Shown: positions 1-41,723 of the stretch, one piece after another
How the letters are laid out: each line of letters begins with the position of its first letter
Position numbering within the stretch: position 1 is the stretch's first letter
Origin: a virus
Reading direction: 5' to 3' (one strand)
Virus record (IMG/VR): IMGVR_UViG_3300036652_002526
Coordinates: 1 to 41,723 of that record
DNA: 41,723 nucleotides
Position numbers and translations under genes: made by a program
Notes under the pieces: generated by a model
Database searches by the model: none
What the model saw: the letters and a program-made list of their open reading frames with translations, nothing else
What the model was told of the DNA's origin: nothing

Positions 1-471
1 GACGGGGCCGCTGGCCGTGACGTCACCCGTTAAAGCAGTCAAATAGTTGCCCGTGGGCTGCTTACCGGCAAGGTCAGATACCAGGTTCGTTACCTGCGAT
101 TCCGCAATGTTCGGGATATCGGCGGGGGAGGCGGTCGCGACGGTGCTGCCATTGCCCTTGAGGAGGCCGTTGAGTGTCGTCGCGGTGGTATTAGAGACGC
201 TGTTTGGCCCTGCGGGACCAGTCGCGCCAGTCGCGCCAGTCGCACCAGTGGACCCCGTGGGACCGGTTGGGCCAATGGCGCCGGTTAGCCCCTGCGGTCC
301 GGTGGGCCCAGTCGCGCCCGTGGCGCCAACCGGGCCAGTCGGACCCGGTGGGCCCGTGAGGACAGCAGTCGCGAGCACTTGCGCCTCGGAAACGCTCGTC
401 ACGCTCACGCTGCCAGATTCGGAGAGCTCCGTCAGGTCAGCCGCGATGGTGATCATGCTCGTGGGTTGCAT
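1..471 (-). CDS. Collagen-like tail fibre, N-terminal part (runs off left edge)
   Basis: Open reading frame starting at ATG 471 and open at base 1 (157 codons seen). After an N-terminal segment of about 40 residues there is a run of Gly-X-Y triplets ([18 protein letters not shown] and similar, about residues 40-85), typical of phage fibre stalks that form collagen-like trimers. Next come a linker ([15 protein letters not shown]) and a module [17 protein letters not shown] that recurs at the right edge of the window. The start overlaps the upstream stop as TAATG, so it is translationally coupled to the 126-aa gene. The frame matches that of the 1055-residue tailspike at the right edge through a 126-bp exact repeat, so this is probably the N-terminus of that same giant fibre. 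Role inferred: virion-attached stalk of the receptor-binding fibre. Confidence 0.8.
3..128. repeat. 126-bp direct repeat, left copy (also 41595-41720)
   Basis: Bases 3-128 are identical to 41595-41720. Identity stops inside both window ends: bases 1-2 and 41721-41723 do not match the other copy's flanks. This is therefore not a simple end overlap of a circular contig. Both copies are read in the same frame on the minus strand and encode a fibre module ([20 protein letters not shown], then [19 protein letters not shown]). Confidence 0.95.
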
Positions 472-851
472 TACGACGTGCTCAGGTTATAATCCGCGTC
501 GACGCCGAGCGTGCCGCGCAACACCGTAAAGATGCGGCGGTTGCTGCCGGACAGATCGTTACTCAGCTGCACGTCCCAGTAGTACGTGGTTCCGGGCGCC
601 AGCTTACTCGTGTCGTTATTGGCAACACCGTTGCAGAGTTGAAAGTTGAGAATGCCAGTCGAGTCTCCGGGCGCGCTGACCTGGATCACGGGCGTGTCAC
701 CGGTCACGGGTGTCTGGCTGGCAGTGACGGTAAAGGTCGTGTTGTAGCCGGTCAGATTGGCCGGGTTGCCGTTGACGGTCAATGGCACCTGCAGCAAGGG
801 CGTGTCGCCGCGGATAAGGTTATTGGGGAATTTCGTCAGCTTATTGGCCAT
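471..851 (-). CDS. Small virion protein, fibre-associated (Ig-like/BppU-like)
   Basis: 126 aa, ATG at 851. The N-terminus ([16 protein letters not shown], then [11 protein letters not shown]) has the strand pattern of the small beta-sandwich domains found at the base of phage fibres and in BppU-type upper baseplate proteins. No membrane segment or signal peptide is visible. The stop overlaps the start of the collagen-like fibre gene (TAATG), and the gene lies 14 bp after the 62-aa gene, so it belongs to the late operon. The assignment rests on strand pattern and position only; a baseplate or adaptor role is inference. Confidence 0.55.
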
Positions 852-2067: not shown

Positions 2068-4062
2068 TTAGATATCCCGGTTGCCGGTGATGACGAATTC
2101 GGCAACCACATTATCCAGCTCGTAATCCGTCCCGGCGGCGGTGCTGTTCCAGTCGTATTCGAAATAGCGCAGCTCCTCGTTCACGTCGATAATCAGGTCC
2201 TGGCTAACGTTGATAATCTGCTGCGGCACCGCGATGACCTGGCTCCAGGCGTTATTCGACCAGGGCTGCTCGCTCCAGCCGGTAATCGTCTGCTCGCTGT
2301 TGGTCGTCAGCGACCCATTGAAGCTGTAAGGCTGCTTCTGAAACTCACCGCCGACGTTGACATTGATCGTGCCGACCGGATGCAGGAAGGTAAAGACCAC
2401 TTTGAGCAGCTTGGCGCAGGTGCGCTCATCCTTGGCGAAGAAGAGGCGACCGCTGCTGCCGCTCGTCGAAAAGGCGGCGCCGTTATTGACGGTGTACTGC
2501 TGATACGAGAATTCAAAGATCTGATTGTTCGAGAGCACGCAGAAATGGCTCTGACCGTCGCCGCCTTCGGCCACGGTGTTGCTGTTGTAGTGCATGAGCC
2601 ACGCGGCGGCAACATTCCACGGTTTCATCCAAGCGCCGCCGCGGTCAATATCGAGCACCCAGATCTGGTTATTCGTGCTACTGCCGACCGGCAACGCCCA
2701 GTAGAGCCGCCCGTTGTCCAAATCGCTGGCGCAGCCGCTCATCGCTTCCAGGTTCAGGCTAGGGATATCCGTTTGAATGGTATTGCTGACGCGGCGGGTC
2801 GAGATAATCGTCTGGATCTGCGGGATCGTGCCGTCCGTCTTGAAACCATCGATCGACGGGTAGTAATTCGTGTCGTTGTAATAGAGAATGCCGTCCGGCG
2901 AGCAGGTGCCGTCGAGACCGCTCTCCTCCGTGACGTCAAAGAAGTTTACCGTCTGCGCCCCGACGGTGATCGAGTCAGGCGTGAGCGTGAAGCGCTTACC
3001 CCGGCCGTTCGTGCCCTGGCAGTAGCAGACGATCGCCGGAGCGCCACCGTTGCCACGGAACGGGCGCACGCGGACCGGCACCTCTTTGCCGCCGTTATTG
3101 ACCGGGATCGTGGTGCCGCCATTCGCCGGAGAGAAATCCAGTTGGTAAGGATACGTGCCGCCGGCAACCACCATATACGGATTATTCTTGATGCCGGTCA
3201 GAAACACCTGGCTGTTCACCACGTCACCGCGGGTCGCGGCCGGCCCGGCCGTGCTGTCGACGAGCGGGTAGGGCCGCGTCGTATCCTGGTAGGCGCTGCC
3301 ATTGTCGGTATAGGTGGTACCGGTCAGGCCCGAAGCGATCAGGAATTCGGTGCCGACGCCACCAACGCCCATGTAGACATCGTAGCCGGCCGCGCCCGCG
3401 ACGGCCGGCCAGCCGATCTGGAGGCTCTGCGTACTGGCGTTCCAGAGGTCGCGGTCGGTACTGACGGTCACCGAGAGCACAGCTGAGGCGATGCTCTCAC
3501 CGACCGTGCTATTCGCGCTGACGCGATAGGTAATCGTGAAGGTGGTCCCGGTCAGGCCGGTGTTCGTCGTGAGCGTTGGGGCCGTCGGCGTGGTCAGGGC
3601 GGTATATGGCACGATGACCTGGGTAGCAATGTCGTAATAGCTGAGCGTGTCGGTGCCGTTCATCACCAGCACTTTGTTGCCGATCTGGACAAAGTGGGCC
3701 AGTGCGGTGGTGTTATACGTCTTGCCGGAGACAGCCGTCCAGGCTCCGAGGTCTTTGGAGGTATAGACTTTGGCGACGCCCGAGACCACCTGCATGCACG
3801 TGCGGTAATTCAGGATCGGCACGACCGTCGTATCGCGGTACTCGTAAATCTCGCCTAAGACCGTTCCAACCGGCTGGGTGCCGTAGAGGATCAGGGAGGG
3901 CATGGGCCGGATCGTATCATTCTGCGTCAGCAGGACATTGCCGGAGCTCACCAGGCCGTTCACCGGCGTCCGCGGATCGTTCCAGGCGGTCACGACGCCG
4001 TTCTGCCAGGCTTTGACGCTGATCGTCTGAACGACCGCCGGTTTCAGCCCGCTTAGAGCCAT
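2068..4062 (-). CDS. Tail tubular/stopper-like structural protein
   Basis: 664 aa, dominated by beta strands, Tyr and Trp, without membrane segments or low-complexity regions. It begins MALSGLKPAVVQTISVKAWQ and includes AGYDVYMGVGGVGTEFLIA, a fibronectin-like strand pattern around residues 190-260. Size, composition and position (after the 238-aa connector gene, before the collar fibre) match the T7 gp12-like nozzle or tail tubular B-like proteins of short-tailed phages. The start overlaps the end of the 238-aa gene by 10 bp. The function is inferred from position; no catalytic motif is seen. Confidence 0.55.
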   Translation of the reverse strand: MALSGLKPAVVQTISVKAWQNGVVTAWNDPRTPVNGLVSSGNVLLTQNDTIRPMPSLILYGTQPVGTVLGEIYEYRDTTVVPILNYRTCMQVVSGVAKVYTSKDLGAWTAVSGKTYNTTALAHFVQIGNKVLVMNGTDTLSYYDIATQVIVPYTALTTPTAPTLTTNTGLTGTTFTITYRVSANSTVGESIASAVLSVTVSTDRDLWNASTQSLQIGWPAVAGAAGYDVYMGVGGVGTEFLIASGLTGTTYTDNGSAYQDTTRPYPLVDSTAGPAATRGDVVNSQVFLTGIKNNPYMVVAGGTYPYQLDFSPANGGTTIPVNNGGKEVPVRVRPFRGNGGAPAIVCYCQGTNGRGKRFTLTPDSITVGAQTVNFFDVTEESGLDGTCSPDGILYYNDTNYYPSIDGFKTDGTIPQIQTIISTRRVSNTIQTDIPSLNLEAMSGCASDLDNGRLYWALPVGSSTNNQIWVLDIDRGGAWMKPWNVAAAWLMHYNSNTVAEGGDGQSHFCVLSNNQIFEFSYQQYTVNNGAAFSTSGSSGRLFFAKDERTCAKLLKVVFTFLHPVGTINVNVGGEFQKQPYSFNGSLTTNSEQTITGWSEQPWSNNAWSQVIAVPQQIINVSQDLIIDVNEELRYFEYDWNSTAAGTDYELDNVVAEFVITGNRDI

Positions 4063-7800: not shown

Positions 7801-8458
7801 TCGCGAACCGTGATGGCTTCGCCCCGGCGGTCGGGTTATCCAGAGCAGCGTTAGTCGGCAAAGCCGGCTTCGTTGGCATGGTGAGGTCGCGGTTTGGCGT
7901 GGATAAGGCTTTGCCGGAGAGCTTGGTGCGGTCGATCCGCGCCGCTGATGCCTCGGCCGCTTTGGCGGCGTCCGCAGCGGCATTGTCAACCGGATTCAGA
8001 CTACCGCCCTCGGTGCTCATGGCGACATTCATAGCGGCGCCCGGATTGTGGCGGACGTCCGTGTTCTGATTGACGTTCTGGACCCATTGCTTGCCCGCGT
8101 GTTGCAGGGCTTGAGAAGCATGTTGCTGCGCCACGTTATTGTTCGTCGCGCGGGCCGCCAGCAGCGACAGGAAATCAGGAACCGCTTTGACCGTAGGGTT
8201 ATTCGTTATCTGCGACTGGACCAGGTTCTCGACCGGCTGCACGATATGCGGCTGGATCACATCCCGGTTGACCATTGAGCCGAGCGCCGTCCCGAAGCGC
8301 TGCACGGGGTTCAGCTGCGGGGTTTGCACGGGACGCACGGGAGCGGCAGGAACAGGCGGGGGTGGCGGGGCTATGGCATTCCGCACGTCATTGACAGCTC
8401 CGCGCCCGAAATTCACGACGTCGTGCTCGACGTTCTGCAGGAACGGCATCAAGGACAT
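4805..8458 (-). CDS. Large internal virion / ejection-type protein
   Basis: 1217 aa, the longest complete gene here. The N-terminus has a proline-rich hinge (IAPPPPPVPAAPVRPVQTPQ) followed by long Ala/Gln/Lys-rich helical regions. Around residues 480-800 it has Gly-rich stretches (GPAGITLGLGGGFANAQAQG) that could insert into membranes. The last 60 residues are strongly basic with KAPK-type repeats (KAPKITV, KAPKFKS, KAPRVTV). No lytic transglycosylase or peptidase motif was recognised. Position between the capsid block and the tail adaptor is typical for internal virion or DNA-ejection proteins of short-tailed phages; a tape-measure protein is the alternative. The start is 4 bp from the stop of the 358-aa gene. 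Confidence 0.55.
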   Translation of the reverse strand: MSLMPFLQNVEHDVVNFGRGAVNDVRNAIAPPPPPVPAAPVRPVQTPQLNPVQRFGTALGSMVNRDVIQPHIVQPVENLVQSQITNNPTVKAVPDFLSLLAARATNNNVAQQHASQALQHAGKQWVQNVNQNTDVRHNPGAAMNVAMSTEGGSLNPVDNAAADAAKAAEASAARIDRTKLSGKALSTPNRDLTMPTKPALPTNAALDNPTAGAKPSRFANVTVQNSDKVDALTKQLTQEKNVRYTPQATKAGQDLAAQTYGKMNLSKATLDVTNVLNDTKPGAITRQDVFNAHEVANRLQQTGDTADKATASDIYGKLSQHHTAAGQQIQAGAALAAQSPEGMLYSATKALQKGGVKVQGKVLDTLNNAIGEYKQTLDKNGIKPDKQGGVKTGTLPRSQADQQSLAYQKFVDTVNKQIPRGKGAAGIGIWRAGLLTGPETAAKVAVSHGITLPLELASKPVSAGVDALTSLVTGKRGYVFNPTDLKAGVAGYVKGAKAAGTKLTTGLDVPGTGGFEQKLGQSSRMTPYEAAPTRLHGSLAKPNFSAEYEMSLQSQARAEALNQNLKGAQADTFIKNFVNKPSKEALQTAQNEAEHFTNQQKSALGQGAKAIQNWKPGGAPVGTILAPFTRIPGAIGTKGLVDWTPLGLGKAAGDVINGIRRGNFDQRAFSQHVGRSITGTGIAVTGYELMNGGRMTLQAPNDPKEKALWTAEGKQSNSVYVGGKVSKSADGTTTYKGGKWISLNAMGPAGITLGLGGGFANAQAQGKNIPTSLVQSGAAGGKVLASQPYLKGISGVANAVNDPTRYAQTFLDSTVGSIIPAASSQIARGTDATQRAYNPSIPGTLESKIPGVRQATQPAQLDTFGNSVSSGNSGKVPLLSGAMQTVNPFYSLDARNQNDPATQELQRLYTAGGSQNAPAFAAPQKSMTVNGQKTTLTPTQMNQYIANSGPIIHQGITNLLQNPDYQKLTDAQKTSQINDIITGARTAAKVAILNDNPKTLTSTDKAAILNPQSLGKDITIPGLNLAPNIDAQSKGILTKVAGMTSADKTKYLNDPKNKYQYNLATYNNDALNGKYDSVQQFTRQNSLAKEAVTSGYSKQVSELYGMSKAEISNYLTANPNQASTVTDQLIQLDNQLYDSGLSTTLKFKNGVITSGSGRSSGKMKLRAIPKFKTGDFTVKAPKITVGKLTSPKSAFKAPKFKSYAPKAPRVTVHKVKA

Positions 8459-8462
8459 CGGG

Positions 8463-9539
8463 CTACCCTGCCAAGGCGTTAGCGTTTTGGCGATTGTTCA
8501 AGAGAAACGCGTATGGAGCGACGCTATCCGTGGCAGCGCTTGCTCCAGGGCGAGTGGCGAGGGCAACCGTACTCGGGTTGGCCGTGTAGCTTGCCAGTGC
8601 TGGCGGCGTATAGGTGACTGGCGCTCGCGCCGCGACCGGCTGTGGATTGCCCAGGGCTGCAGCAGCGGCCATCAGGGCCTTGGCCTGCTCGACATCGGGT
8701 TGCGAGGCCGCCACGCCTGTGCCGCCGGCGGCAGCCGTGCGTTCGTTGGTCAGGGTGGCTAGCGCCGTCAGCAGGTTGGCTTTATTAGTATCAAACTTGG
8801 CCTGGGCGGCATTCACCGCTTGCGTGCGCTGCAGGTCCGCGTTCCGCGTATCCATCGTGTAGGCGTTCTCGGTATTGTTGTAATTGGTATCCAACCCCTG
8901 CTCATTCTGGCCGAAGGTCAGCCCCGCTTGCGCCCGTTGCCCCGTGCCTTGCTTGCCGGCCAGTAGCGCCGCATAGTCTCCGGCGGACTCACCCCCAGCG
9001 CCACGAGCGCCAAGCAGGCGATCAACGCTGGATATAGTATTGCCGGTATTGGTGTTGATGGCGTTTTTCGTGGTGACATAGCCTCGGGCATCCTGGGTTT
9101 TGGCCGTATTGTACGACTGTTTCGTGAGGGCATTCTGCTGGTTCAGGTTGTTCATCGTCGTCTGGTAACTGTTCGCGATGGATGCCAGATCATTATTGTA
9201 CGTCGGCGTCAGGTCGTTGATTTCGGCGTTGGTGGTATCAATGCCCTGATCGTAGGAGCTCAAGTTGGCGCCGTTCCCGGTGCTACTGGTAGCGGTACCG
9301 TCCGTGGTGCTGCCGCTACCAGTAGCTGGCGTATTTGTGTTCGCGCCGAGCACCTGCGGCGTGAGCAAAATCTGGCTGGCCGTGGGCGCGACGGTGAGCT
9401 GGGGATTCGGCGAAGCGACGCCCTGGACCGTCGGCCCGGAGGGAGTTTGAATCCCGGCGGCGGTGCCTTGCAGCACGCTCATCGCCGAGGGCGAGCTGCC
9501 CTGGAAACCGGTCGGATTAGTGGAAACCGTCAGTGCCAT
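8463..9539 (-). CDS. Virion protein, Ala/Asn/Thr-rich (putative internal protein)
   Basis: 358 aa, low sequence complexity at both ends and a predicted helical/coiled-coil middle (NDLASIANSYQTTMNNLNQQ; NTENAYTMDTRNADLQRTQA). Ribosome site AAAGG precedes the ATG at 9539, and a TGCTAGAAT extended -10-like box lies about 15 nt upstream. Directly followed by the 1217-aa protein, as expected for a pair of ejection proteins. No known catalytic motif. The structural assignment rests on position and composition. Confidence 0.5.
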   Translation of the reverse strand: MALTVSTNPTGFQGSSPSAMSVLQGTAAGIQTPSGPTVQGVASPNPQLTVAPTASQILLTPQVLGANTNTPATGSGSTTDGTATSSTGNGANLSSYDQGIDTTNAEINDLTPTYNNDLASIANSYQTTMNNLNQQNALTKQSYNTAKTQDARGYVTTKNAINTNTGNTISSVDRLLGARGAGGESAGDYAALLAGKQGTGQRAQAGLTFGQNEQGLDTNYNNTENAYTMDTRNADLQRTQAVNAAQAKFDTNKANLLTALATLTNERTAAAGGTGVAASQPDVEQAKALMAAAAALGNPQPVAARAPVTYTPPALASYTANPSTVALATRPGASAATDSVAPYAFLLNNRQNANALAG

Positions 9540-9609
9540 AGTGGTTATGCCTTTATTCTAGCAAACATTAGTGGATAAAGGGGCAGCGAGAGACGCCGCC
9601 CCGAAAGAA

Positions 9610-9744
9610 CTAGTTGCCCTTAAAGCCTTCCGGCAGGGGCATCTTCTTGACTTTGGCCCGGTTGGAAGCGCCCTTAATGTGCTTCGCCCCGGCAGCCTTG
9701 CGCAGGCTCGATTGGATCGCCTGCTGATGGGAATTCATCGCCAT
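9610..9744 (-). CDS. Small basic capsid-block protein
   Basis: 44 aa, start ATG 9744, 1 bp after the stop of the 121-aa gene. Sequence features: QQAIQSSLRKAAGAKHIK, then RAKVKKMPLPEGFKGN; net strongly positive. Fits the tight packing of the late operon and keeps the coding direction. Probably a minor virion or DNA-associated protein; family unknown. A 70-bp gap separates it from the 358-aa gene. Confidence 0.5.
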   Translation of the reverse strand: MAMNSHQQAIQSSLRKAAGAKHIKGASNRAKVKKMPLPEGFKGN

Positions 9745-9745
9745 A

Positions 9746-10111
9746 TTACTTGGCGCTCCCGCCCATATTACTGGCTGCGCTCTTGGCGCTCTGCGTGGTG
9801 TTTAAACCGCGCTTAGTCGCCTGGTCGGCGCTCGCCTGTTGACTCGGCGTCGGATCGACGTCAGCCGCGGCGTGCGTGTTCACGGGGCCTTGATGCTGCT
9901 CCAGAGTCTGGAAATTCGCCAGACCCGGATCGCTCGGGTTGGCGAGCGCCGCTTCCCGCACGGGACTGGCGGCAGCGACGCCTTCCATCGCGTTCACCTG
10001 GGCATTACGCTCGGCATGGAGGTCCACGCCATCCTCTGCCAGCCGCCGTTGGGTGATCGCTGTGGCGTCAGCTTTGATCTGTTCGATATAGTTCTTCGTT
10101 AAATCTGCCAT
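9746..10111 (-). CDS. Capsid-block protein of unknown function
   Basis: 121 aa, ATG at 10111 with AAGG upstream. Ala/Gln/Asn/Thr-rich, acidic N-terminal helix (TKNYIEQIKADATAITQRRL) and a flexible C-terminus. Lies directly after the major capsid gene, the usual place for decoration, head-completion or scaffold-like factors. No recognised domain. Confidence 0.5.
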   Translation of the reverse strand: MADLTKNYIEQIKADATAITQRRLAEDGVDLHAERNAQVNAMEGVAAASPVREAALANPSDPGLANFQTLEQHQGPVNTHAAADVDPTPSQQASADQATKRGLNTTQSAKSAASNMGGSAK

Positions 10112-10149
10112 ATAGATACCTTGATTACGTTACTATTGCGAGACCACTA

Positions 10150-10989
10150 TTACGCGGTCTTATGTTGGGCGCAGGCATTGATCTTAGCGGTCAGCGCGAA
10201 CGCGTCGTAGACGATACGGCCTTCGAGCAACCAGCCGTTGATGCCGGGCGCGTCGGTATGGGTCAGGTAGGACGCCAGAATCATCGGGCTCACCAGGACG
10301 TCAGGATGGGTAATGATGAGGTCGGTGCTCGTCGGCATGTAGGAAGCAGGCAGGCAAATCACCATGCAGCCTTCCAAATCGCCGTAGTCGCCGCTTTGGC
10401 GGGCTTTCTGAGCGATGTCGCTGTTCAGGATGTAGCCGGACTGCACGAGCGCCGTACGATAGGCGTTCGTCATGAAGACGAGGCGGCCCTGGATCGGTAC
10501 GAGGTTATCGCTGATCGCGCCGTTGAGCGTCATGAAGTTGGCATAGGCGTTCGCGCTTGTCGTCGCGCCGGCCACGATGGCCGCGTTCGTGGTACTCGTG
10601 CTGGCCGCAGCGGCGACGCCGAGGGCCGCCATACGGTAGATGTCAATTTCCGGAGTGACCACTTCGCGGATCTGACGGGCTAAGAAGCTGCCGGCTTCCT
10701 CGACGCCTTCCTGCTCGGCGTTGTTGCGCCGGTCAATGGTGGTCGTGAAGGCGCGGTCACGGCTAAGCGTCAGGCTCTGGGTGGTCGTGCCGGCTTCCGA
10801 CGGGGTACCGTAGCGGCTAGTGCCGGAACGGGTGTAAGTCCCCATCGTGACGGTGGCGACCGAGTAGACGACGACCGTGGTCACGCCTTCCCAGTCATAA
10901 TCTTGGTTCGTGGCCTTCTGGGTAAAGCTCAGGTGGCTAAACCGCTCGGCGACTTTCGGGCTATATTTTTGGGCTAAGTTCACAGCCAT
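10150..10989 (-). CDS. Major capsid protein (HK97-like fold expected)
   Basis: 279 aa. N-terminal arm (MAVNLAQKYSPKVAERF), then a beta-rich region and the segment TLSRDRAFTTTIDRRNN, followed by EEAGSFLARQIREVVTPEID (the spine-helix-like region of many HK97-fold capsids), an Ala-rich A-domain region and a C-terminal beta stretch (GINGWLLEGRIVYDAFALTA). Follows a scaffold-type gene and has a strong ribosome site (AAGGAAGGAA), as expected for the most abundant virion protein. Identification combines position, length and fold pattern. Confidence 0.8.
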   Translation of the reverse strand: MAVNLAQKYSPKVAERFSHLSFTQKATNQDYDWEGVTTVVVYSVATVTMGTYTRSGTSRYGTPSEAGTTTQSLTLSRDRAFTTTIDRRNNAEQEGVEEAGSFLARQIREVVTPEIDIYRMAALGVAAAASTSTTNAAIVAGATTSANAYANFMTLNGAISDNLVPIQGRLVFMTNAYRTALVQSGYILNSDIAQKARQSGDYGDLEGCMVICLPASYMPTSTDLIITHPDVLVSPMILASYLTHTDAPGINGWLLEGRIVYDAFALTAKINACAQHKTA

Positions 10990-11998: not shown

Positions 11999-12316
11999 TT
12001 ACCTCTGTTCGTCTTCGTCCAGGAGCGACATGATATAGTCCCGTTCCGCGATTAATTTGTCGCGCACGATCCGGTTGGCCTCAACGTGGCGCTGGTAGAC
12101 AGCCGGAGCGTCATCCAATGAGACTTCGATGGAGTCAATGCTCGTGTAATAATCGATTTGGTCATTGAAGCGCTGGATCACATCACGGACGAGTGGCTTG
12201 GCCTGGCGCAGCTTGTCCAGTTCCTCTTTGGCTTCTTCGGTCTGCGTCCCGGGCGCGGCGAACCATTCGCCGTCGTTAGGGTACATGTTGTCATCGTCCA
12301 TAAGATCAGCCATCAC
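11999..12316 (-). CDS. Small acidic helical protein next to portal
   Basis: 105 aa, ATG 12316, overlapping the portal stop by 4 nt (ATGA). Acidic, two or more helices (EEAKEELDKLRQAKPLVRDV; RHVEANRIVRDKLIAERDYI). No known domain. A 100-bp gap follows before the scaffold gene. Possibly a portal or scaffold accessory factor (inference). Confidence 0.5.
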   Translation of the reverse strand: MMADLMDDDNMYPNDGEWFAAPGTQTEEAKEELDKLRQAKPLVRDVIQRFNDQIDYYTSIDSIEVSLDDAPAVYQRHVEANRIVRDKLIAERDYIMSLLDEDEQR

Positions 12317-14562
12317 AGCACCTTTCCACTCATCCGCTTCGTGACGTGCGCCATTACAGTGGCCGCCGGGTGACCGCTATGCAGCATCGCCATCGCCTCG
12401 CCGATCACCTGCGGGTGGACGTTCTGGCGACGCATTTCACCGATCGCGGCCATGTCGTTCGGGCTGAATTTCACGCTGTTCATAGGCGCAGGAGCGACGT
12501 TGTCCGTCTCTGCCAGGTTCGGATCAGTCTGCGGTGGTTGCTGCTGTGGGCCGCTCTGATCAGCCGGAGGGGCGGGGTTCGCCGCTTGCTGAAGATGTTG
12601 CGAGCCGGTATTGAGCGCTTCGGCCTGTTTGGCGCCGTGCTGCAGGTCGTTCGTGTCCATTTGGTTGGCCGTGTCGTTGATATCCGGTTGCAAGCCGGCC
12701 TTCTGCACGATTTGGGCTTTGATCATCGGGCTCGTGCCCGGATCCTTGTAGATGTCCTCCAGTTTGATCGGCGTGTCGGCGACATTGGTGCCGGGCGGCA
12801 GGTTGACGCCGCCCATCGCCAGCGCGGCCGACATGGCATCGGGCGGCACACTGCCGATGAGGCGGATATCCGGCGGGTCAATGATCGGGTACGGCTCCTG
12901 CAGCGCCGCTTGCGCTTCCTGGTCGTTCATCTTGTAGATAATCTTGTCGATATTGTCGACGTTGCTCTTATTGAAGAGTTCGTAATACCACTGGCCGAGA
13001 TCGAGCTTCCAACCGTTCTGGCCCAGGAACCAGCGCATTTGCGGCGTCATGAGCGGCTGCAGCTGTCCCATCAGCTGCATTTGCTGCTGATCCTCGAGCT
13101 CCTGCGACGAGCTCGGATCAACCTTGAAGCGGATGACTTCGGTCACCTGGTCGTAATCGATCGTCAGCACATCGTTCTCATCGAGCAGTGACTGATCGAA
13201 TTTGTCCGCGGCCAGATCACGGAGCTTGCTGGCCGTCTCGCTGTCGAGCTGCAGCTGTTCCTTGCCGCTATGGCAGGCGAACCAGTCGTTGATGGCGCCT
13301 TCGCTCCAGCGCTCGAACGCGTACTCGAATTTCTTGCGGATGAAATTGTCGTCGATACTGAGGTTCTGCTGGACTTGCTGCACGCCCTGCGTCGTCTTGC
13401 TGAATTGGCTGTTGCCGGCCGTCTGGCTAACGCTAGCCGTCGGGGCGCTGAGCAGCTGGTAGAGGCGCGACTGGTTCAGGCTGTAGAGCGTGGAATAATT
13501 GGCGAGGGCGGTGGAGTCGATCGTGACCGGCTCGGCATCGTTTTTCGGGTCCACGCCCAGGTCCCAGATGGCGTTCGGCTGCAGCTGCAGCTGGCTCTTG
13601 TTGTAGGTGCCGTGCTTCTTGACTGGCGGCGCCAGCATGAGCGCCCGGTTGAACTGGTACATCTGGTCTTCGGTGTCCATCAGGTTCTGCAGCGGCGCCA
13701 CCAGCTCGACGAAACCGCGGCCGAACGGATTGTAACCGTTCGTTTCGCAGTAGTTGAAAATCAGGGGGATTTCGCCGCGCGGGTCTTTGTTCTTGGTGGC
13801 GCGCACGATCAGGTTGGACTCGCGGTGGAACATCAGAAACTGGCTGCCGATCCCGCGTTGTAAGCCGATGATCAACTCGATACCGCCGCGCTGGTTGACG
13901 GCGCTGGCCCGATCGGTCGGCGTCATGGCCTTCTCGTCTTTCGTCTGCTCCTTGTCCTTGACCTCTTGGAGATTGGTGACGTTCCAGCCGCTATCGGTCG
14001 CGTCATCCTTGTCCATCTTGCCCACGCGGTCGATCAGCGCCTCGATATCTTCTTCGCGCCACCAGGTGCGCAGGAACAGGTAATTGCTGTCTTCGTCGGA
14101 GATTTTGCCCGGCTGGACGAAGATGTCGCCCCACCAGGGATTGACCCAATCCGGGCCAACGTAGTCGCCGTGGTGCAGGTACGGGCGGTAGATCGGGCTG
14201 AAACCGCGGGTAAGCGAGCCCTCGATCGCCTGCCAGCACTTCTCGATCAGCATGTACTGATGATTGGCGTTCTTGTAGATCACGTGCGTCAGTATGAAAT
14301 TGGCGACGATCGCTACCCAGTCGTTGTCGGGATAGAGGATGCGGCCGGTCGGCAGCACCTGCACCACCCGGCGAGGCGTCTTATGGATAATGCTGGCGGT
14401 GGTGCCGTCGGTATTGCGCGGGTAGTGCTTGTCCAGGCCGGGTTTGGGTTTGTTGTTGGCGAGGCGCTGGTACTCCGAGAAGGGAATCGTGAGGCTGTCG
14501 GTATACTGCTTCGAGAGCTCGAAGCGCCGAAAAACGTTCTCCTCGGTCAGATACTGGAACAT
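12313..14562 (-). CDS. Portal protein
   Basis: 749 aa. It has the features of the large podovirus-type portals: N-terminal TGRILYPDNDWVAIVANFIL, a central aromatic-rich region (HHGDYVGPDWVNPWWGDIFV), the clip/stem segment with LVAPLQNLMDTEDQMYQFNR, and a long Gln/Pro-rich C-terminal barrel-like extension (residues about 640-700). The dodecameric portal would be the packaging channel and the docking point of TerL. Start overlaps the 83-aa gene's stop (TGATG). Confidence 0.85.
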   Translation of the reverse strand: MFQYLTEENVFRRFELSKQYTDSLTIPFSEYQRLANNKPKPGLDKHYPRNTDGTTASIIHKTPRRVVQVLPTGRILYPDNDWVAIVANFILTHVIYKNANHQYMLIEKCWQAIEGSLTRGFSPIYRPYLHHGDYVGPDWVNPWWGDIFVQPGKISDEDSNYLFLRTWWREEDIEALIDRVGKMDKDDATDSGWNVTNLQEVKDKEQTKDEKAMTPTDRASAVNQRGGIELIIGLQRGIGSQFLMFHRESNLIVRATKNKDPRGEIPLIFNYCETNGYNPFGRGFVELVAPLQNLMDTEDQMYQFNRALMLAPPVKKHGTYNKSQLQLQPNAIWDLGVDPKNDAEPVTIDSTALANYSTLYSLNQSRLYQLLSAPTASVSQTAGNSQFSKTTQGVQQVQQNLSIDDNFIRKKFEYAFERWSEGAINDWFACHSGKEQLQLDSETASKLRDLAADKFDQSLLDENDVLTIDYDQVTEVIRFKVDPSSSQELEDQQQMQLMGQLQPLMTPQMRWFLGQNGWKLDLGQWYYELFNKSNVDNIDKIIYKMNDQEAQAALQEPYPIIDPPDIRLIGSVPPDAMSAALAMGGVNLPPGTNVADTPIKLEDIYKDPGTSPMIKAQIVQKAGLQPDINDTANQMDTNDLQHGAKQAEALNTGSQHLQQAANPAPPADQSGPQQQPPQTDPNLAETDNVAPAPMNSVKFSPNDMAAIGEMRRQNVHPQVIGEAMAMLHSGHPAATVMAHVTKRMSGKVL

Positions 14563-23234: not shown

Positions 23235-25271
23235 ATGCCATGGATGAATCCCGACTACTTCAACCGACTCAGTGACCACGAACAAGACCGGCTCTTTGCG
23301 ACGCACCTGCCCCTCGGCGAGAACCCTAACACCGGCGACGCCTTCTGGGTGCCCGATGAAGACCGCTACGCTGGCACCCATGTCATCGGCGTGCAAGGCG
23401 GCGGCAAATCTTCTTGCCTGGAAGGCTTGATCCACCATGACATCCGCCAGGGCAACGCCGTCATCGTGTTCGATGCGCACGGTGACTTGGCTGACCACTG
23501 CTTAGCCGCGCTGCCCGTAGAGGCTATGCCTCGCACCAGTATTCTGGATATGGAGGATGAAGATTTCCCCTTCGGGGCCAACCTGTTCGCCCAAGGGAGC
23601 CTCACGACAGATGCGGCCAAAGGCCAGGCCGTGGAGCGCATTACCCACGTCTTCGATGTCTTCTGGCCGGAGGTCATGAAGCAGCAGTATGCGCCACTCT
23701 ATCTCGAGCACGGCACGCGGGTCCTGCTGGAAAATCCAGGGTCAACGCTGCTCGACTTGCAGCGCTTGCTGCGCCATAAAGCGTACCGGGCACAGTTGCT
23801 CAAGCGTTGCCAGCCTGCGGAGCGCGATTTCTGGCGCCGCGAGTACGACCCGCTGAAGCCCGAGACGCAGATCAGCCGCGCCCGACCGTTGCTCAACCGC
23901 ATCCAACTGTTGACCAGCAGCCCGCTGCTGCGCAACCTCATCTGCCAGGCCCGGGCCATCGACTTCCGCGCGGCCATTGAGCATAGGGAGGTGCTATTCA
24001 TCAAATTGCCCACGACCACACTGGAGAAAGACGCCAGCATGGTCGGCATGGTCCTGATCGGGCAAATCAACGCGGCGGTCTTCTCCACGCGCAACCCCGT
24101 GTCGCTCTACGTCGATGAGTTCCAAAACTTCGTGACGCCGGATTTCGAGAAGTTCCTCAGCCAGGGCCGCAAGTTCCGCCTCCGCATGGTGGTGAGCCAC
24201 CAGCGCAGAGACCAGCTCAGTGAAAAGCTGCAAAAGGCCACGCAGTCGGCGCGCACGAAGGTCGTCTTCCGCGTGACGGCGGAGGATAGTCGCAAGCTGG
24301 CCCAGGATTTTCCTGTACGCGCCAGCCGTCCGAAGCCAGAGGACATCCACCTGTACCCATGCGACTACCTGCTGAGCCACACGCACCTGATGCGCGACGG
24401 CGGCGTACTGGCCTTCGTGGAGAGTTACCTGCTGCCGCTGCAAGGCGCGAAGAGCAGCCGGGGCCAGGTGGTAATCACCGAGCCCGAGTTCCGCGCCGAG
24501 GAATTTGTCAAATCCGTGGACGGCATGATTACCGGGGCGCTGCTGCTCGGGCATATGCTGAACGGCACCCCGCAGAAGCGGTCGCCGGTACGGGTGCCTG
24601 ATCCGACGCCGACCCTCGATGCGCTGCTACGAGAAGTCATGGCCACGGATAACCCCCGGCTGCCGATCCCGCCGGTCATCGTGCGTGGGCTGGCCAACTG
24701 TGGCGACTTCTTCTCGGCTGTGCGCAACATCGCGCCCGAGCACCCAGCGCTGCAGCCAGGCTTTACGCCGCCAGCCCATTTAATCCGCGTCACGAACAAC
24801 GGCTGGCAAGTCTTACGTGCGCCGGAGTCGCCAAGCGAGTGGCTGGCCCACTGCGTGTTTCTCTTGCGCCACACCATGGCCTACCTCGCGGCGCACCCGC
24901 TTGGCAACGTCAAGGAGACCAGCGCCAGCGAGATTGCCCAGCTGCTGACACGGCTGCCCAAACGCCACGCACTCATTCGGAGCGACGACGATTTCGGTCC
25001 GATCAAGACGTTCGACGCGCCGGAGCCAGCACCCGGCAGCGAGGGCGGGGCGGCCTACATTGTCCAAGCCAGCCGCGAGCGCTACTGCCGACCGCGTGAA
25101 GATGTCGAGGCGGCGTTTATTGGGGAAGACGCTGCTCCAGATGAGCCGGAAGAGGAGGAGAGCACGAGCAAGGAAGACGTGCAAGTGGTCGATAACTCAG
25201 GCCTAACGGTTGAGCCGCAGCCATCAGCCGAACTGCCCGACGAACCGGCAGTCAGTCGGTGGGAGCTCTAA
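23235..25271 (+). CDS. TraG/VirD4-like coupling ATPase
   Basis: 678 aa, start supported by AGGAGG. P-loop GVQGGGKSS (residues 52-60), a second strand motif VIVFDAHGDL (77-86), Walker B LYVDEFQNF (291-299), and the following sensor-like region FRLRMVVSHQRRDQLSEKLQ, all as in the TraG/TraD/VirD4 T4CP family (also the HerA/FtsK clade). These hexameric pumps move DNA or protein through membranes or load relaxosomes. The C-terminal 100 residues are acidic and unstructured, usual for substrate recognition. No other type IV secretion gene is present, so it may use the host's or another element's channel, or act in partition or replication. Confidence 0.85.
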   Translation: MPWMNPDYFNRLSDHEQDRLFATHLPLGENPNTGDAFWVPDEDRYAGTHVIGVQGGGKSSCLEGLIHHDIRQGNAVIVFDAHGDLADHCLAALPVEAMPRTSILDMEDEDFPFGANLFAQGSLTTDAAKGQAVERITHVFDVFWPEVMKQQYAPLYLEHGTRVLLENPGSTLLDLQRLLRHKAYRAQLLKRCQPAERDFWRREYDPLKPETQISRARPLLNRIQLLTSSPLLRNLICQARAIDFRAAIEHREVLFIKLPTTTLEKDASMVGMVLIGQINAAVFSTRNPVSLYVDEFQNFVTPDFEKFLSQGRKFRLRMVVSHQRRDQLSEKLQKATQSARTKVVFRVTAEDSRKLAQDFPVRASRPKPEDIHLYPCDYLLSHTHLMRDGGVLAFVESYLLPLQGAKSSRGQVVITEPEFRAEEFVKSVDGMITGALLLGHMLNGTPQKRSPVRVPDPTPTLDALLREVMATDNPRLPIPPVIVRGLANCGDFFSAVRNIAPEHPALQPGFTPPAHLIRVTNNGWQVLRAPESPSEWLAHCVFLLRHTMAYLAAHPLGNVKETSASEIAQLLTRLPKRHALIRSDDDFGPIKTFDAPEPAPGSEGGAAYIVQASRERYCRPREDVEAAFIGEDAAPDEPEEEESTSKEDVQVVDNSGLTVEPQPSAELPDEPAVSRWEL

Positions 25272-25275
25272 AGGT

Positions 25276-26118
25276 ATGAAAACCTTCACCGTCACGCCCA
25301 CCTACGACCTGCTGCTGCGCGGCAACGAGCGTGTTCCCTACGGCCTCTACCAGCTGCAGCTGCTGACCGCCGAACAGCTGACGCGGCTGCACTACCAGCC
25401 CGGCACCCTCAAAACCGTCAAGGCGCGGCTGAAGGCGCTGGCCGACCATGGGTACGTACAAGCCGACGCCATGCCGATCAGACACGAAACCGCCCGCGGG
25501 CTCCTGTACGGCTCGCCCTACTACTACACGCTCGGCCCGGCTGGTGTGCGCTATCTCAAGGAAGCGGGATATGCCACCGCCGCGAGCTGGCGGCCAAGCC
25601 GGGAGGTCGAGAAGAGCCTGCTGTTCCTGCAGCACACGCTGGAGATCAACGACATTCTGATCAGCGCCGCCAAACTTACGGGCGCGTACCGGCTGGAGCG
25701 GATGACCCACGAACGGGTGCTTAAACGCAAGCCTTTTACCTTCAAGTATGAGGGCACGACCTACGGCCTGGTGCCGGACGGCTTCCTGCGCTTTGAGACG
25801 CCAACGCGGCCACGCCGCTTTCTGCTCGAGCATGACCGGGCACGGGAGCCCAACGCCGACATCCGGCGCAAAATCCGGGCGTACCGGGCGCTCCTGCGCA
25901 GCGAGCCGTTCCCCATCCTGTTCACGACCTTCGCGGGCGACGCGCACCGTGACCGTTTGCGCAGTTGGGTACGGGCAGAGCTCGTAAGAGCCAAGGAGCC
26001 GCCGGAAATCGGGCGCTACTTCTACTTTGCGGCGTTCGCCCGTCCGCCCGGCCCCGAAGTCTGGACAAGCCCTGTTTGGTACACCTCGTATGGCGACCCG
26101 CCGCGAGCGCTGCTCTAG
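25276..26118 (+). CDS. Replication-relaxation family protein
   Basis: 280 aa from ATG 25276. The N-terminus contains a winged-helix-like region (LLTAEQLTRLHYQPGTLKTV, LKALADHGYVQADAMPIRHE) and the central part matches the replication-relaxation family (SLLFLQHTLEINDILISAAK; YGLVPDGFLRFETP; FLLEHDRAREPNADIRRKIR). That layout is also related to restriction-like folds. Such genes occur in plasmids and integrative elements next to TraG-like ATPases. It follows the ATPase by 4 bp, so the two are co-expressed and may form one DNA-processing complex. Confidence 0.8.
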   Translation: MKTFTVTPTYDLLLRGNERVPYGLYQLQLLTAEQLTRLHYQPGTLKTVKARLKALADHGYVQADAMPIRHETARGLLYGSPYYYTLGPAGVRYLKEAGYATAASWRPSREVEKSLLFLQHTLEINDILISAAKLTGAYRLERMTHERVLKRKPFTFKYEGTTYGLVPDGFLRFETPTRPRRFLLEHDRAREPNADIRRKIRAYRALLRSEPFPILFTTFAGDAHRDRLRSWVRAELVRAKEPPEIGRYFYFAAFARPPGPEVWTSPVWYTSYGDPPRALL

Positions 26119-28752: not shown

Positions 28753-28842
28753 TTAGCTCAATATCATTGCGGCGAGCTCTGCATTGGTCAGTCGCTTGCC
28801 TTGGCGTTGCTGTTGTCTGATTTTGTCCGTTCGTTTGCTCAC
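28753..28842 (-). CDS. Micro-ORF of 29 aa, last of a coupled chain
   Basis: GTG 28842 overlaps the preceding stop as GTGA; AAAGGA lies 5 nt upstream. Basic peptide (KRTDKIRQQQRQGKRL, ending AELAAMILS). Supported by the overlap pattern and ribosome site only; it also lies beyond an intrinsic terminator. Confidence 0.35.
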   Translation of the reverse strand: MSKRTDKIRQQQRQGKRLTNAELAAMILS

Positions 28843-28886
28843 AAAAGTCCTTTCTTCTTAAAACTGTCTGCGGTATGGTCGGTCAT
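28839..28886 (-). CDS. Micro-ORF of 15 aa, partial copy of an upstream C-terminus
   Basis: ATG 28886, overlapping both neighbours by 4 nt. The peptide MTDHTADSFKKKGLL repeats the C-terminus of the 109-aa gene (ESFKKKGLLK); the DNA repeat CAAAAGTCCTTTCTTCTTAA occurs at 28841-28860 and 28973-28992. Likely a duplication fragment carrying a ribosome site for the next micro-ORF. Confidence 0.35.
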   Translation of the reverse strand: MTDHTADSFKKKGLL

Positions 28887-28972
28887 GATATAATGTCCTT
28901 AGGCGAACGAAAGTTCGTATGCTGATCAGGCCAAAAAAGCACTGAGAAATCGGTGTTTTTTTGTTGGTTCAT
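28883..28972 (-). CDS. Micro-ORF of 29 aa containing the operon terminator
   Basis: ATG 28972 overlaps the stop of the 109-aa gene (ATGA) and its own stop overlaps the next ATG (ATGA). Encodes MNQQKNTDFSVLFWPDQ and so on. The terminator hairpin of the operon lies within it, so it is either a chance ORF or a translated leader that decides read-through. Confidence 0.3.
   Translation of the reverse strand: MNQQKNTDFSVLFWPDQHTNFRSPKDIIS
28886..28962 (+). ncRNA. Candidate small RNA with promoter and terminator
   Basis: Extended -10 TGATATAAT (TATAAT 28889-28894), expected start near 28901. A CGAAC-GAAA-GTTCG hairpin (28904-28917) follows, then an intrinsic terminator with a GAAA tetraloop (CACTGA/TCGGTG, 28940-28955) and seven T. 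Length about 60 nt, antisense to the end of the early operon. No protein is encoded. Confidence 0.5.
28933..28962. terminator. Bidirectional intrinsic terminator
   Basis: 6-bp stem CACTGA/TCGGTG with a GAAA loop on the plus strand, flanked by AAAAAA and TTTTTTT. Functional signature on both strands: ends the leftward early operon and the rightward candidate sRNA. Confidence 0.85.
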
Positions 28973-29298
28973 TTCAAAAGTCCTTTCTTCTTAAAACTCT
29001 CAGTAATTTGGTCAACTGCTTTATCATGCCCAAGTGCCACAAAGTAGTCAGTCGAATGCTCTTTATCCATGGCGAGGTTTCGATACTTCGGGTCAGCTAG
29101 CCAGTACTCCGGCATTCCCGACTGGATGGCGGCGCGGATAGCGTGCATGACTTTCAACCCGCTTACATGTGCTTCTGGTTTCGCTCCGCTCGCCCGTCTT
29201 GTGCTGTCCCGATAGCCTGCAAGATAGACCTTCTCAAGTATCATTTCTATCACGCTCAGCACATCGTTAGGGGTGTTGTCAGTTGTGTTCTTTGGCAT
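28969..29298 (-). CDS. Early protein, unknown function
   Basis: 109 aa. Helical (LSVIEMILEKVYLAGYRDST; DYFVALGHDKAVDQITESFK) with a lysine-rich C-terminus. Last sizeable gene of the leftward early operon, 2 bp after the 63-aa membrane protein gene. No family recognised. Confidence 0.5.
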   Translation of the reverse strand: MPKNTTDNTPNDVLSVIEMILEKVYLAGYRDSTRRASGAKPEAHVSGLKVMHAIRAAIQSGMPEYWLADPKYRNLAMDKEHSTDYFVALGHDKAVDQITESFKKKGLLK

Positions 29299-37770: not shown

Positions 37771-38466
37771 TTAGAAGAACGGGAAGAACTGACCGGTATT
37801 CGGAGGAGGGGGGCCACCACCAGAAGGGGCAACAGACGCCATCATAAGAATGACGTTATCCGTGTTGGCATTGGAATAGGTGTGCGTGACTGACCCCGGT
37901 GTGGCAATACCGGTGGTGGATGAAGCGCAGACATCGTACCCACTTTGTGGAGCGCCAATCTGCGTCATATTAGCGCCAGTAGCCGACCCGCTGCCGTGGT
38001 CGTCGAAGTCGCAGAAGCTAAACACCATGCAGTTCGCGGCCACCGTCGTGATGCTGCCCGAGTGGGGGTTGGTGCTCCCGTCCGTTTCAACAAGATTTGA
38101 ATTATCGATAGAGGATGCGGCGTTACCGTAGACGGCGTAGCCGACAGCAGGGTTTGAAGCGGCGCCGCCAAAGGTAACGACCAAGTTATGAGTTCCCGTC
38201 GCCAACCCCGTAATGACGTATAAATACGCTGACGAGTTGGTAAAGTGTCCGCTAGGGTTCGGATACTCGCTCTTCTGGAGCTGCGTTAAATTGACCCCGT
38301 TATACGTAACGGAACTGACTTTGGAGTTAGCTCCGCTCGAACCGTCATATGCCTGGATGCCAACCACTAACGTAGAGTTAGGATTGCTGATAACCACCGA
38401 AATAGTACAGGTGCTACCCGATAGGGTAGTTGAACTGCCGTCGGTATCTAAGGTTGGAGCCGCCAT
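37771..38466 (-). CDS. Structural/adhesin-like virion protein
   Basis: 231 aa. Thr/Ser/Gly/Asn-rich beta sandwich pattern (STLVVGIQAYDGSSGANSKV; GTHNLVVTFGGAASNPAVGY) and a Pro-rich C-terminus (GGGPPPPNTGQFFPFF). No helix or membrane segment. Starts immediately after the tailspike stop, so co-expressed; a tip, decoration or chaperone-like fibre partner is inferred. Confidence 0.55.
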   Translation of the reverse strand: MAAPTLDTDGSSTTLSGSTCTISVVISNPNSTLVVGIQAYDGSSGANSKVSSVTYNGVNLTQLQKSEYPNPSGHFTNSSAYLYVITGLATGTHNLVVTFGGAASNPAVGYAVYGNAASSIDNSNLVETDGSTNPHSGSITTVAANCMVFSFCDFDDHGSGSATGANMTQIGAPQSGYDVCASSTTGIATPGSVTHTYSNANTDNVILMMASVAPSGGGPPPPNTGQFFPFF

Positions 38467-41400
38467 TTAGTACCCCGTCGCGTCAGCGGCCAAGACGACA
38501 AACTTCGCGGCGGCTGCGTCATAGCGCAGTCCGATAGTGTGCGTTTTCCCGGCGACGGTCGTGCCAATCCACGAGGCAATGCCCGAATTGGTAACATTGG
38601 TCGGTGTCGCGACTGTTTGTGAGGCGGCTCCCTTGATGCGGATAAGCAGGTCCTGGCCGTCCGTCGGCGTACCCGATAGCGTGAAGCTGGTGATATTCGC
38701 GGCGAGGGCGGTGATGTTGTATTGGTCATAGGAGTCGGTATTGACCGAAGGCGCGGCACTGGAAGTTGTGGTACCGATGCGTTCGGTAATACGTTTGTTG
38801 GTGAGTGTTTGGGTACTTGTCAACATGGCAATACTCGCCGTGTCCGAGAGGTTGGTGGAAGCTAGAGAGATATTAGCTGAACCGTCAAAAGAAACGCCAG
38901 CGATGGTCCGGGCAGTCGTGAGTTTGGCAGCCGAGCCAGTTGTATTCTGGTTGAATATTGGGAATGTGTTGCCAGCACCAGTGAGGTCTTTATTGGTGAG
39001 TGCTTGGGTGTCAGTCGTACCGACGATGGTGCCTGTTGGAGCCGCCTTAGACGTACCCCATGCCGTCCCAGTCGAAACAGCGATACCGCTGCCGGGATAA
39101 ACCATGCTGCCGCCGCTCACAGTAATGTCGTAGCGAGTGCCCGAGCCATCACCTGTAATACGCGTACCGGAGCCAGTAATCATACCTAACTCGAACTTCA
39201 GGTTGGTCGCCCCGTTAATATTGACGATACCCGTGTTCGGGGTGGCGTCCATGAATATCTGGTCGATGAGGATACCACCAGACATCGCGCCAGCGCTGTC
39301 ATTGATGTTGATAACCGAGTTGCCGATGTTGGCCGTCGGTCCGGTGTTCATAAAGATGTTAGTAAACGACGCTTGGTTGTATCCAGGGGAAGCGGAAGCC
39401 GAGCCGAACGTGATGGCGTTAAACGGCGTGGAGTAGCTGGTGTTGTAATTCCCGGCGCTGAAGAAGATCTGGTCCATATAGAGCTGCTGGGTGTAGCTGT
39501 CAAATACACAGAAGTCGCCGTTGACGGTCGGGTAGTTCTCGATTTTACACTGGCTAAAGAAGAAGCCGTTATTACCGCCGCCCGTCGCACCCGTGCCGCG
39601 TTTAATCCAGATAGCACCGTTTAGGAACGTCTCAACGCGGAGCTGCTCAAACCACAGCATATTGGAGGTGCCATTAGCCGAACCGTAAATGTTGATAACC
39701 GGCAAGCTGGTGCTGCCGCAGTTGTTGAAGGTAATCTGGCTGAAGTACGAATCCTGGGTAGTGTTGATGTCCCAGGCCACGTCGTTGCTGCCAACGAACG
39801 AACAGCCACGGAAGAACATCTGCTGGCAGGAATTGAGTTGGACTAAGCCGCCCGTCGAAGCATTGCCATCGACCGTTATATCAACCATGCCGCCATACTG
39901 GTTCGCGAAGGTTGGCCCTTGATAGCCGAGCCACGATACCGCGACGCCAAAGCTGGAATTTTTGAATATGCGCGAGGCATGGTGACCGTCCCCGCGCAGG
40001 ATTACCCCGTAGCCTGAAGCCGAACTGGTAGCGCTCGAACAGTTGAGGGTAGCCGTTATCTTATATGTTCCCGCAGGGAAGTAGACGGTCGCAGTTCCCT
40101 GGTTTGTCGCCAGAGCCGCATTGATGGCGCTCTGGATAGACGAGGTATCGTCGTTGGAGCCGTTACCGATCGCCCCGTAGTCCTTCACATTGAAGAATGA
40201 CTTGTTTATGGTCACCCATGAGGCGTTCGTGGCATTTGTAGTGAGGTATTTTCCACTGTTGCCCGCCTGTGAGGGGAGAAGGGCATTTAGGGCGGCAGTA
40301 GCGGTTATCTGACCCGTACCGCCATTAGCGAGCGGAAGAATCGTCGAGCCGACGTTCGCCGTTAAATCGATAGAACTGAGCGTTGCCAATGAACCGAGCC
40401 CAAGGTTCGTGCGGGCGCTGCTCGCGCTTGCCACGTCTGAGAGGTTATTCGTGGAGGATAAGGAATAGACAGTGCCCGTCCCTGCATCTGAGATATTAGT
40501 CGTACAGCCGCTGATAGCGTTATTCGCGACAACCGTTGCAGTTGCCCCTGAGCCAATCTGGATGCCCGTAGCGACTTCTGAAATTGTATTGCCGCTGATG
40601 AGGGCATACCCGCCGCTGGTGTTTACTTGGATACCGATCGCGCCCGCAAGGGGTGCTGAACTGCTGGTAACCGTGTTGCCAACGACCGTCGCGCCGTAGC
40701 CTCCGACACTATCATTGATGAATATTCCACTTCCGGCATACCCCATGTGAATGGTGTTTCCTGAAACGGTACAGCCGTCGACGACCTGTATGCCATTACT
40801 CCCAGCCTGGTATACCGTGTTACCAGTGAATGAGCACCGGAAATCTGACGTAAATATTGCGGCATCACCCCCGAAGAACGAATTTCCTGTAACCGACACC
40901 CATTCGCCGCCGGTGCAGAGAAGCGGTGAGCTGCTCCCGAAGTTGTTGCTTTGGCGGTACACGAAGTTACCGGAGAATGTCGAATCCGCATTCAACCAGA
41001 CACCGCCTCCCGACACATGAGCTGCGATGAAGTGGTTGCCAACGGCACGATTGCGCGGACCAAAAAAACAAACAGCAGCACTGCTCGTCGCTTCAAATAT
41101 ATTGTTGGAATATGCGTTATAGTAATAATTTGAATTGAAATACCCACTCGCTTGCCCCTTGATGTGATTCAACGTCAACGTGGAAAACTGTCCCGCTATC
41201 TGCGTCTGGTAACTTGCGCCGTTGTCTATCGTCACGCCGGACAGTTTTAGGTAGTTGCCGGAGAGGACGAGGTTCGCTCCAAGCGTCAGGAGCACCGTTT
41301 CGTCTCCTGCCCCGATAATCGTCAGGTTGGCTTGGGCGAACGTGCCGCCTGCTTCACTGTAAGAGCCTGGTTTGATAAAGATGGTATCCCCTGCAACCGC

Positions 41401-41723
41401 CGCGGCGAGGCAGGCTGAGAGGGTCGTGTAATCACCGCCAGTCGGAGCGACAAGATGCGTATAGAGGATTTGTCCGCTTCCACCCGTACCATTGGCGGCT
41501 GCCGTGATGCGTCCCTTAGCATCGACGGTGAGATTGGTATTCGTGTATGAACCGGGCGCAACGGCTGTGGAGGCAAGCGTTGCCGCGGCGCTGCCGGGGC
41601 CGCTGGCCGTGACGTCACCCGTTAAAGCAGTCAAATAGTTGCCCGTGGGCTGCTTACCGGCAAGGTCAGATACCAGGTTCGTTACCTGCGATTCCGCAAT
41701 GTTCGGGATATCGGCGGGGGTTC
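38467..41723 (-). CDS. Giant beta-helix tailspike (runs off right edge)
   Basis: Open at the right edge, stop at 38467; at least 1080 residues. Order from the visible end: fibre module ([32 protein letters not shown]), a first right-handed beta-helix (GDTIFIKPGSYSEAGGTFAQ to ISGCTTNISDAGTGT, with repeated ISGNTI/VSGNTI turns), a linker, a second pectate-lyase-3-type beta-helix (VKDYGAIGNGSNDDTSSIQS; YFPAGTYKITATLN), and a C-terminal fibre cap (LTNKRITERIGTTTSS; NITSFTLSGTPTDGQDLLI). Such spikes bind and degrade surface polysaccharide. A 126-bp repeat links it in frame to the collagen-like fibre at the left edge, so the complete gene is probably one very long protein. The TTG at 41634 is unlikely to be the true start. 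Confidence 0.85.
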   Translation of the reverse strand, partial: TPADIPNIAESQVTNLVSDLAGKQPTGNYLTALTGDVTASGPGSAAATLASTAVAPGSYTNTNLTVDAKGRITAAANGTGGSGQILYTHLVAPTGGDYTTLSACLAAAVAGDTIFIKPGSYSEAGGTFAQANLTIIGAGDETVLLTLGANLVLSGNYLKLSGVTIDNGASYQTQIAGQFSTLTLNHIKGQASGYFNSNYYYNAYSNNIFEATSSAAVCFFGPRNRAVGNHFIAAHVSGGGVWLNADSTFSGNFVYRQSNNFGSSSPLLCTGGEWVSVTGNSFFGGDAAIFTSDFRCSFTGNTVYQAGSNGIQVVDGCTVSGNTIHMGYAGSGIFINDSVGGYGATVVGNTVTSSSAPLAGAIGIQVNTSGGYALISGNTISEVATGIQIGSGATATVVANNAISGCTTNISDAGTGTVYSLSSTNNLSDVASASSARTNLGLGSLATLSSIDLTANVGSTILPLANGGTGQITATAALNALLPSQAGNSGKYLTTNATNASWVTINKSFFNVKDYGAIGNGSNDDTSSIQSAINAALATNQGTATVYFPAGTYKITATLNCSSATSSASGYGVILRGDGHHASRIFKNSSFGVAVSWLGYQGPTFANQYGGMVDITVDGNASTGGLVQLNSCQQMFFRGCSFVGSNDVAWDINTTQDSYFSQITFNNCGSTSLPVINIYGSANGTSNMLWFEQLRVETFLNGAIWIKRGTGATGGGNNGFFFSQCKIENYPTVNGDFCVFDSYTQQLYMDQIFFSAGNYNTSYSTPFNAITFGSASASPGYNQASFTNIFMNTGPTANIGNSVININDSAGAMSGGILIDQIFMDATPNTGIVNINGATNLKFELGMITGSGTRITGDGSGTRYDITVSGGSMVYPGSGIAVSTGTAWGTSKAAPTGTIVGTTDTQALTNKDLTGAGNTFPIFNQNTTGSAAKLTTARTIAGVSFDGSANISLASTNLSDTASIAMLTSTQTLTNKRITERIGTTTSSAAPSVNTDSYDQYNITALAANITSFTLSGTPTDGQDLLIRIKGAASQTVATPTNVTNSGIASWIGTTVAGKTHTIGLRYDAAAAKFVVLAADATGY
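41595..41720. repeat. 126-bp direct repeat, right copy (also 3-128)
   Basis: Exact copy of bases 3-128 with unmatched flanks on both sides, in the same reading frame of fibre coding sequence. The assembly probably broke or joined at this repeat. Confidence 0.95.

Follow-up and report, generated by a model that had tools for sequence, protein, structure and literature searches.

An exact 126-bp repeat at both ends of a phage record, most likely an assembly overlap within one tail-fibre gene

The window analysed here is the entire IMG/VR record IMGVR_UViG_3300036652_002526 (41,723 bases), which carries the same 126 nucleotides at both ends, and this raises the question whether the repeat belongs to the phage or to the way in which its genome was assembled. 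An earlier note on this DNA had read the repeat as a module of one giant fibre gene lying across a circular junction, possibly with further copies missing between the ends, and had concluded from the mismatched flanks that it was not a simple contig overlap. We consider it very likely that the record is a complete, circular or circularly permuted genome of a temperate phage that was cut within a single-copy fibre gene, and that the repeat is a k-mer assembly overlap. The repeat itself is most likely ordinary, a by-product of assembly and not a biological feature.

The end repeat and the two parts of the fibre gene

A repeat search of the window recovered the direct repeat at 100% identity on the same strand (Table 1), as had been described. 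An exact match of 126 nt is far beyond chance; the next-longest direct repeat in the window measures 39 nt at 85% identity, and blastn with the repeat as query against the window gave no third copy. The flanks are indeed unmatched on both copies, but the mismatch is small. At the left, base 2 (A) differs from base 41594 (C) while base 1 (G) is still equal to base 41593 (G), and at the right the last three bases, TTC, stand against AGG at positions 129-131 with 0/3 equal. Both copies share one reading frame on the minus strand, as the earlier note had seen, and lie in two ORFs (471..1 and 41721..38467) that are both open. Joining the ends by overlap gives 343 + 3254 = 3597 nt, corresponding to 1,199 codons including the stop. 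The 39-nt repeat lies at 28842-28880 and 28975-29013 with a start-to-start spacing of 133 nt, and its second copy overlaps the 3' end of a small ORF (28969-29298).

The left ORF matches tail-fibre PHROGs and has the collagen-like N-terminus that had been assigned to it from the letters alone (Table 1). In the right ORF the module is followed by a glycine/serine-rich linker, a region (residues 82-490) whose fold is of no recognised kind, a pectate-lyase-type beta-helix (509-731) and a conserved C-terminal part (736-1084). Of the double beta-helix proposed for this end, one helix stands, namely residues 509-731 with their match to PF12708, which also match alginate epimerases in the PDB (best E 1.1e-9), and the second finds nothing in Pfam at E ≤ 1. 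Residues 391-449 of the same ORF show one weak PDB match, to the short tail fibre gp92 (E 1.8e-4). With collagen-like stalk, spacer module, beta-helix and C-terminal part, the protein is a fibre or tailspike of the ordinary modular type of temperate phages.

Table 1. Features at and near the two ends of the window.
Feature	Position	Strand	Evidence
Left contig overhang GA	1..2		base 2 differs from 41594, base 1 equals 41593
5' part of the fibre gene, with its start codon, a collagen-like stalk at residues 40-89 and the module; open at the left end	1..471	-	PF01391 E 2.1e-9; PHROG tail fibre families
Left 126-nt repeat copy, encoding the fibre module (41 protein letters)	3..128	-	repeat search, blastn
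Small structural protein upstream of the fibre gene; L003 counterpart in the same place (L003:5136-5483)	471..851	-	29% over 100 aligned residues, pair E 6e-4
Large structural protein near the left end; L003 counterpart upstream of the fibre gene	2068..4062	-	27% over 672 aligned residues, pair E 2e-58
Protein downstream of the fibre gene, ends GQFFPFF (L003 counterpart: GQFFSFF)	37771..38466	-	33% over 106 aligned residues (second half), pair E 3e-5
3' part of the fibre gene	38467..41721	-	PF12708 E 1.4e-13; 81% best-segment identity to L003
Right 126-nt repeat copy	41595..41720	-	repeat search, blastn
Right contig overhang TTC	41721..41723		0/3 equal to 129-131

A relative with an intact fibre gene

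Scanning IMG/VR with the right ORF yielded seven loci, the best of which, L003 (IMGVR_UViG_3300036651_000466), carries the gene in one piece: a single uninterrupted ORF (5485-8355, 956 aa) with a collagen-like start, one module and the same C-terminal part as the fibre of the window. Residues 736-1026 of the window fibre are 96.6% identical to L003 at the amino-acid level (281/291) and residues 8-81 are 87.8% identical (65/74), whereas most of residues 82-490 have no counterpart there. The genes around the L003 fibre gene are the same as those at the left and right ends of the window and stand in the same order (Table 1), including the gene at 1066-2022, whose counterpart is also found upstream of the L003 fibre ORF (27% over its first part). 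These neighbours differ from L003 in being just 27-33% identical to their counterparts, and this distance outside the C-terminal part of the fibre is a point against the assembly overlap.

As L003 has the end genes of the window side by side and a single gene in place of the two halves, the reading of a circular junction is supported, with gene content that is continuous over the join. The claim of one fibre gene spanning a circular or circularly permuted junction thus holds, the gene being intact in L003 between conserved neighbours. The ends might also belong to two separate fibre genes that merely have a module in common, in which case they would not be adjacent and the record would be an incomplete fragment. 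Modules of this type are indeed common to many different fibres, but in L003 the gene order carries on over the join, and a single gene sits between these neighbours; furthermore, the start region is absent from the right half and the C-terminal part from the left one, each being present in the other half. We regard separate fibre genes as very unlikely.

While the fibre C-terminal part (736-1026) is nearly identical to that of L003, the neighbouring genes are as distant as given above, and this comparison of protein sequences suggests that the receptor-binding end of the fibre was recently exchanged. Recent exchange of the receptor-facing end of a fibre is a well-known pattern.

End overlaps in other records

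As a control, the terminal 400 bases on either side were fetched for 50 further IMG/VR records with a minimum length of 20 kb (38 + 12), a sample that is not random. The first batch comprised the handles G001-G051 (n = 51), from which 13 records under 20 kb were excluded to leave 38; from the 28 loci of the second batch 12 were used after exclusion of those under 20 kb, those whose identifiers are of the isolate type and L151, whose matches are like those of L150. A repeat of at least 30 bp within 30 bases of both ends was found in 13/50 records, with lengths of 127 (four records), 126 (three), 123 (two), 118, 114, 99 and 68 bp (one each). All four 127-bp repeats reach both record ends exactly, and all three 126-bp repeats are followed on the right by 8, 20 and 29 further bases, as is the 118-bp repeat by 19. 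The mismatched flanks of the window therefore do not separate it from a contig overlap as the earlier note had argued, since 3/50 other records show a 126-bp end repeat with extra bases and 4/50 an exact one of 127 bp. Because the length of 126 bp recurs at the ends of other records, it is best attributed to the assembly, where it would be k-1 for k = 127, and not to the fibre.

This agrees with what is described for contigs from circular templates. According to a passage of the CheckV paper, end repeats cluster at odd lengths that are the k-mers of the assembler and derive from circular templates (PMC8116208). Passages of the COBRA paper give the end overlaps as maxK for metaSPAdes and MEGAHIT and as maxK-1 for IDBA_UD, mention metaSPAdes with k up to 127 in use, and mention that joins may fail to be unique owing to strain variants or sequencing error (PMC10914622). 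Like the DTR contigs of CheckV and the self_circular contigs of COBRA, the window has a same-strand exact repeat at both ends, with a length that would be set by the largest k of the assembler and is found in the collection as k or k-1 (127 in 4/50 records, 126 in 3/50), and a genome that is probably otherwise whole. In contrast to them, its repeat would have the length k-1 and not k, and it stops short of the first and last base, with 2 and 3 bases beyond it.

The model that we favour starts from one turn of a circular, or circularly permuted and terminally redundant, genome, and we infer a short-read assembly with 127 as the largest k-mer. The assembler would have opened the circle within the tail-fibre gene, leaving the identical 126 bp at each end. 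In a k = 127 graph, paths with just 126 bases in common have no mutual 127-mer and would stay unjoined, so that a changed base on either side of the shared stretch would suffice to keep the circle open and to leave 126 bp plus a few bases beyond. The terminal GA and TTC would then represent a strain variant or sequencing error, nothing would be missing between the ends, and the fibre gene would be a single one of about 1,198 codons that contains the module once.

Among the 13 control records with end repeats four have an overhang, in all four at the right end alone, whereas the window has one at both ends, which speaks against the assembly overlap. Three of the four control overhangs resume matching past one changed base (7/8, 28/29 and 18/19), and that of G020 diverges (4/20 match) like the right end of the window, whose three bases all differ and hence are not explained by a single changed base, again a point against. 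Neither G017 nor G020, the two records compared in this respect, has a 14-mer in common with the repeat of the window; G055 is a weaker control than these two, as its overlap lies within a sequence having short internal repeats.

A 126-bp direct terminal repeat physically present in a linear virion genome, as in T7, would likewise stand at both ends in the same orientation. Such a repeat would however have to sit in the middle of a gene, at a point over which the gene of the relative is intact; moreover, unmatched bases lie outside both copies, so that the repeat is not at the physical ends, and its length is the k-1 of an assembler found in other records. We consider a terminal repeat of this kind extremely unlikely.

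The record very probably represents a complete genome, yet one which strict end-repeat detectors would miss, as the 2-3 extra bases at each end let a strict start-to-end comparison overlook its completeness. Four other records among the 50 sampled have an overhang of the same type, so that counts of such circular genomes may be too low. In practice this is a small but tangible gain. The four records (L084/L085 of G017, L090/L091 of G020, L170/L171 of G055 and L126/L127 of G045) show end overlaps of 126 or 118 bp with one-sided extra bases and are probably further complete circular genomes missed by a strict end-repeat test.

Module copies in related fibres, and the remaining genome

The repeat could also be genuine, with at least two identical tandem modules in the fibre gene, an assembly that broke in the array and a missing stretch between V (left) and T (right). 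Within the window the module is seen at the contig ends alone. Neither flank continues to match, which speaks for such an array, and at a permissive cut-off 20/51 module-bearing ORFs of other loci have at least two module copies, so that a second copy is not absurd and counts against the assembly overlap. These copies are diverged, however, as module copies inside one fibre normally are. An exact direct repeat of at least 126 nt occurs in 0/51 and one of at least 30 nt in 5/51 of these ORFs, the longest, of 104 nt, being that of L032. Of the three lines of argument, from record ends, from the left flank and from repeats in relatives, this last one is the weakest, since exact repeats as long as k or longer would not show up in assemblies. 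L003 has a single module copy; in addition, the repeat has precisely the k-1 length of a k = 127 assembly, as at the ends of the three control records, and a 126-bp repeat by itself would leave a k = 127 graph unbroken.

The left flank bears on the same question. Base 2 would turn the glycine of GP-G in the left copy into valine, and the right copy keeps the glycine. Scored with a module profile, the window itself being left out, 62 of the 67 module copies of relatives have P-G at a fixed column, the remaining five being two copies shifted by one, one with A-G and two (L-A, G-N) that are truncated or poorly aligned. The valine that tandem modules require at the glycine position after P is found in 0/67 copies, and to judge from these alignments it is more readily explained by an erroneous or variant base at the contig end than by a functional second copy. 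The genuine tandem repeat is therefore unlikely in our view, and the more specific picture of a fibre with at least two identical 42-codon modules, those between the ends having been lost in assembly, with a module number that could vary between particles, seems quite improbable. If it were true, the variable number of modules among phage particles could alter the length of the fibre. The proposal of further missing copies is thus not supported, given the single copy in L003 and the recurrence of the 126-bp length at other record ends, and for recombination between module copies changing fibre length the record holds no evidence.

True intragenic repeats of about 104 nt do exist in such fibres: the related fibre gene of L032 (ORF 6893-10265) contains, elsewhere in the gene, an exact 104-nt direct repeat with copies 210 nt apart, and this can be counted in favour of a genuine repeat. 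In GenBank phages the module gave no match at E ≤ 1e-5, and at E ≤ 10 it gave 19 records, all but one with less than 60% identity. A diversity-generating retroelement was considered and rejected, as no reverse transcriptase was noticed among the ORFs or among the proteins compared with family libraries, and identical copies are not what such an element would produce.

The window encodes terminase, capsid and tail genes as well as a tyrosine integrase. Its TerL is 61% identical to that of a prophage-like contig of Arthrobacter cavernae PO-11 (L191/L192, G064:C95, 40,084 bp). The same contig also encodes a serine recombinase, a portal of the SU10 type and a capsid 33% identical to that of the window. 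This similarity gives a hint that the host may be actinobacterial. No close relatives in viral contigs were found for the 1,217-aa protein at 4805-8458 or for the portal-sized protein of 749 aa at 12313-14562, and the fibre gave 120 pattern matches in genome contigs with no relative among them. A search for TerL in six related records, run without a positive control, found it in 0/6, and a search for tRNA genes gave none.

Finally, the window carries a TraG/VirD4-type coupling ATPase (TraG-D_C E 3.5e-5, TrwB_AAD_bind E 1.4e-5) together with a Replic_Relax protein (E 2.2e-23), at 23235-25271 and 25210-26118, both on the plus strand. The A. cavernae contig also has a TraG-type ATPase near its serine recombinase (23-25% identity, TrwB_AAD_bind E 1.3e-11), and the retention of conjugation-type genes in a temperate phage lineage is worth attention.
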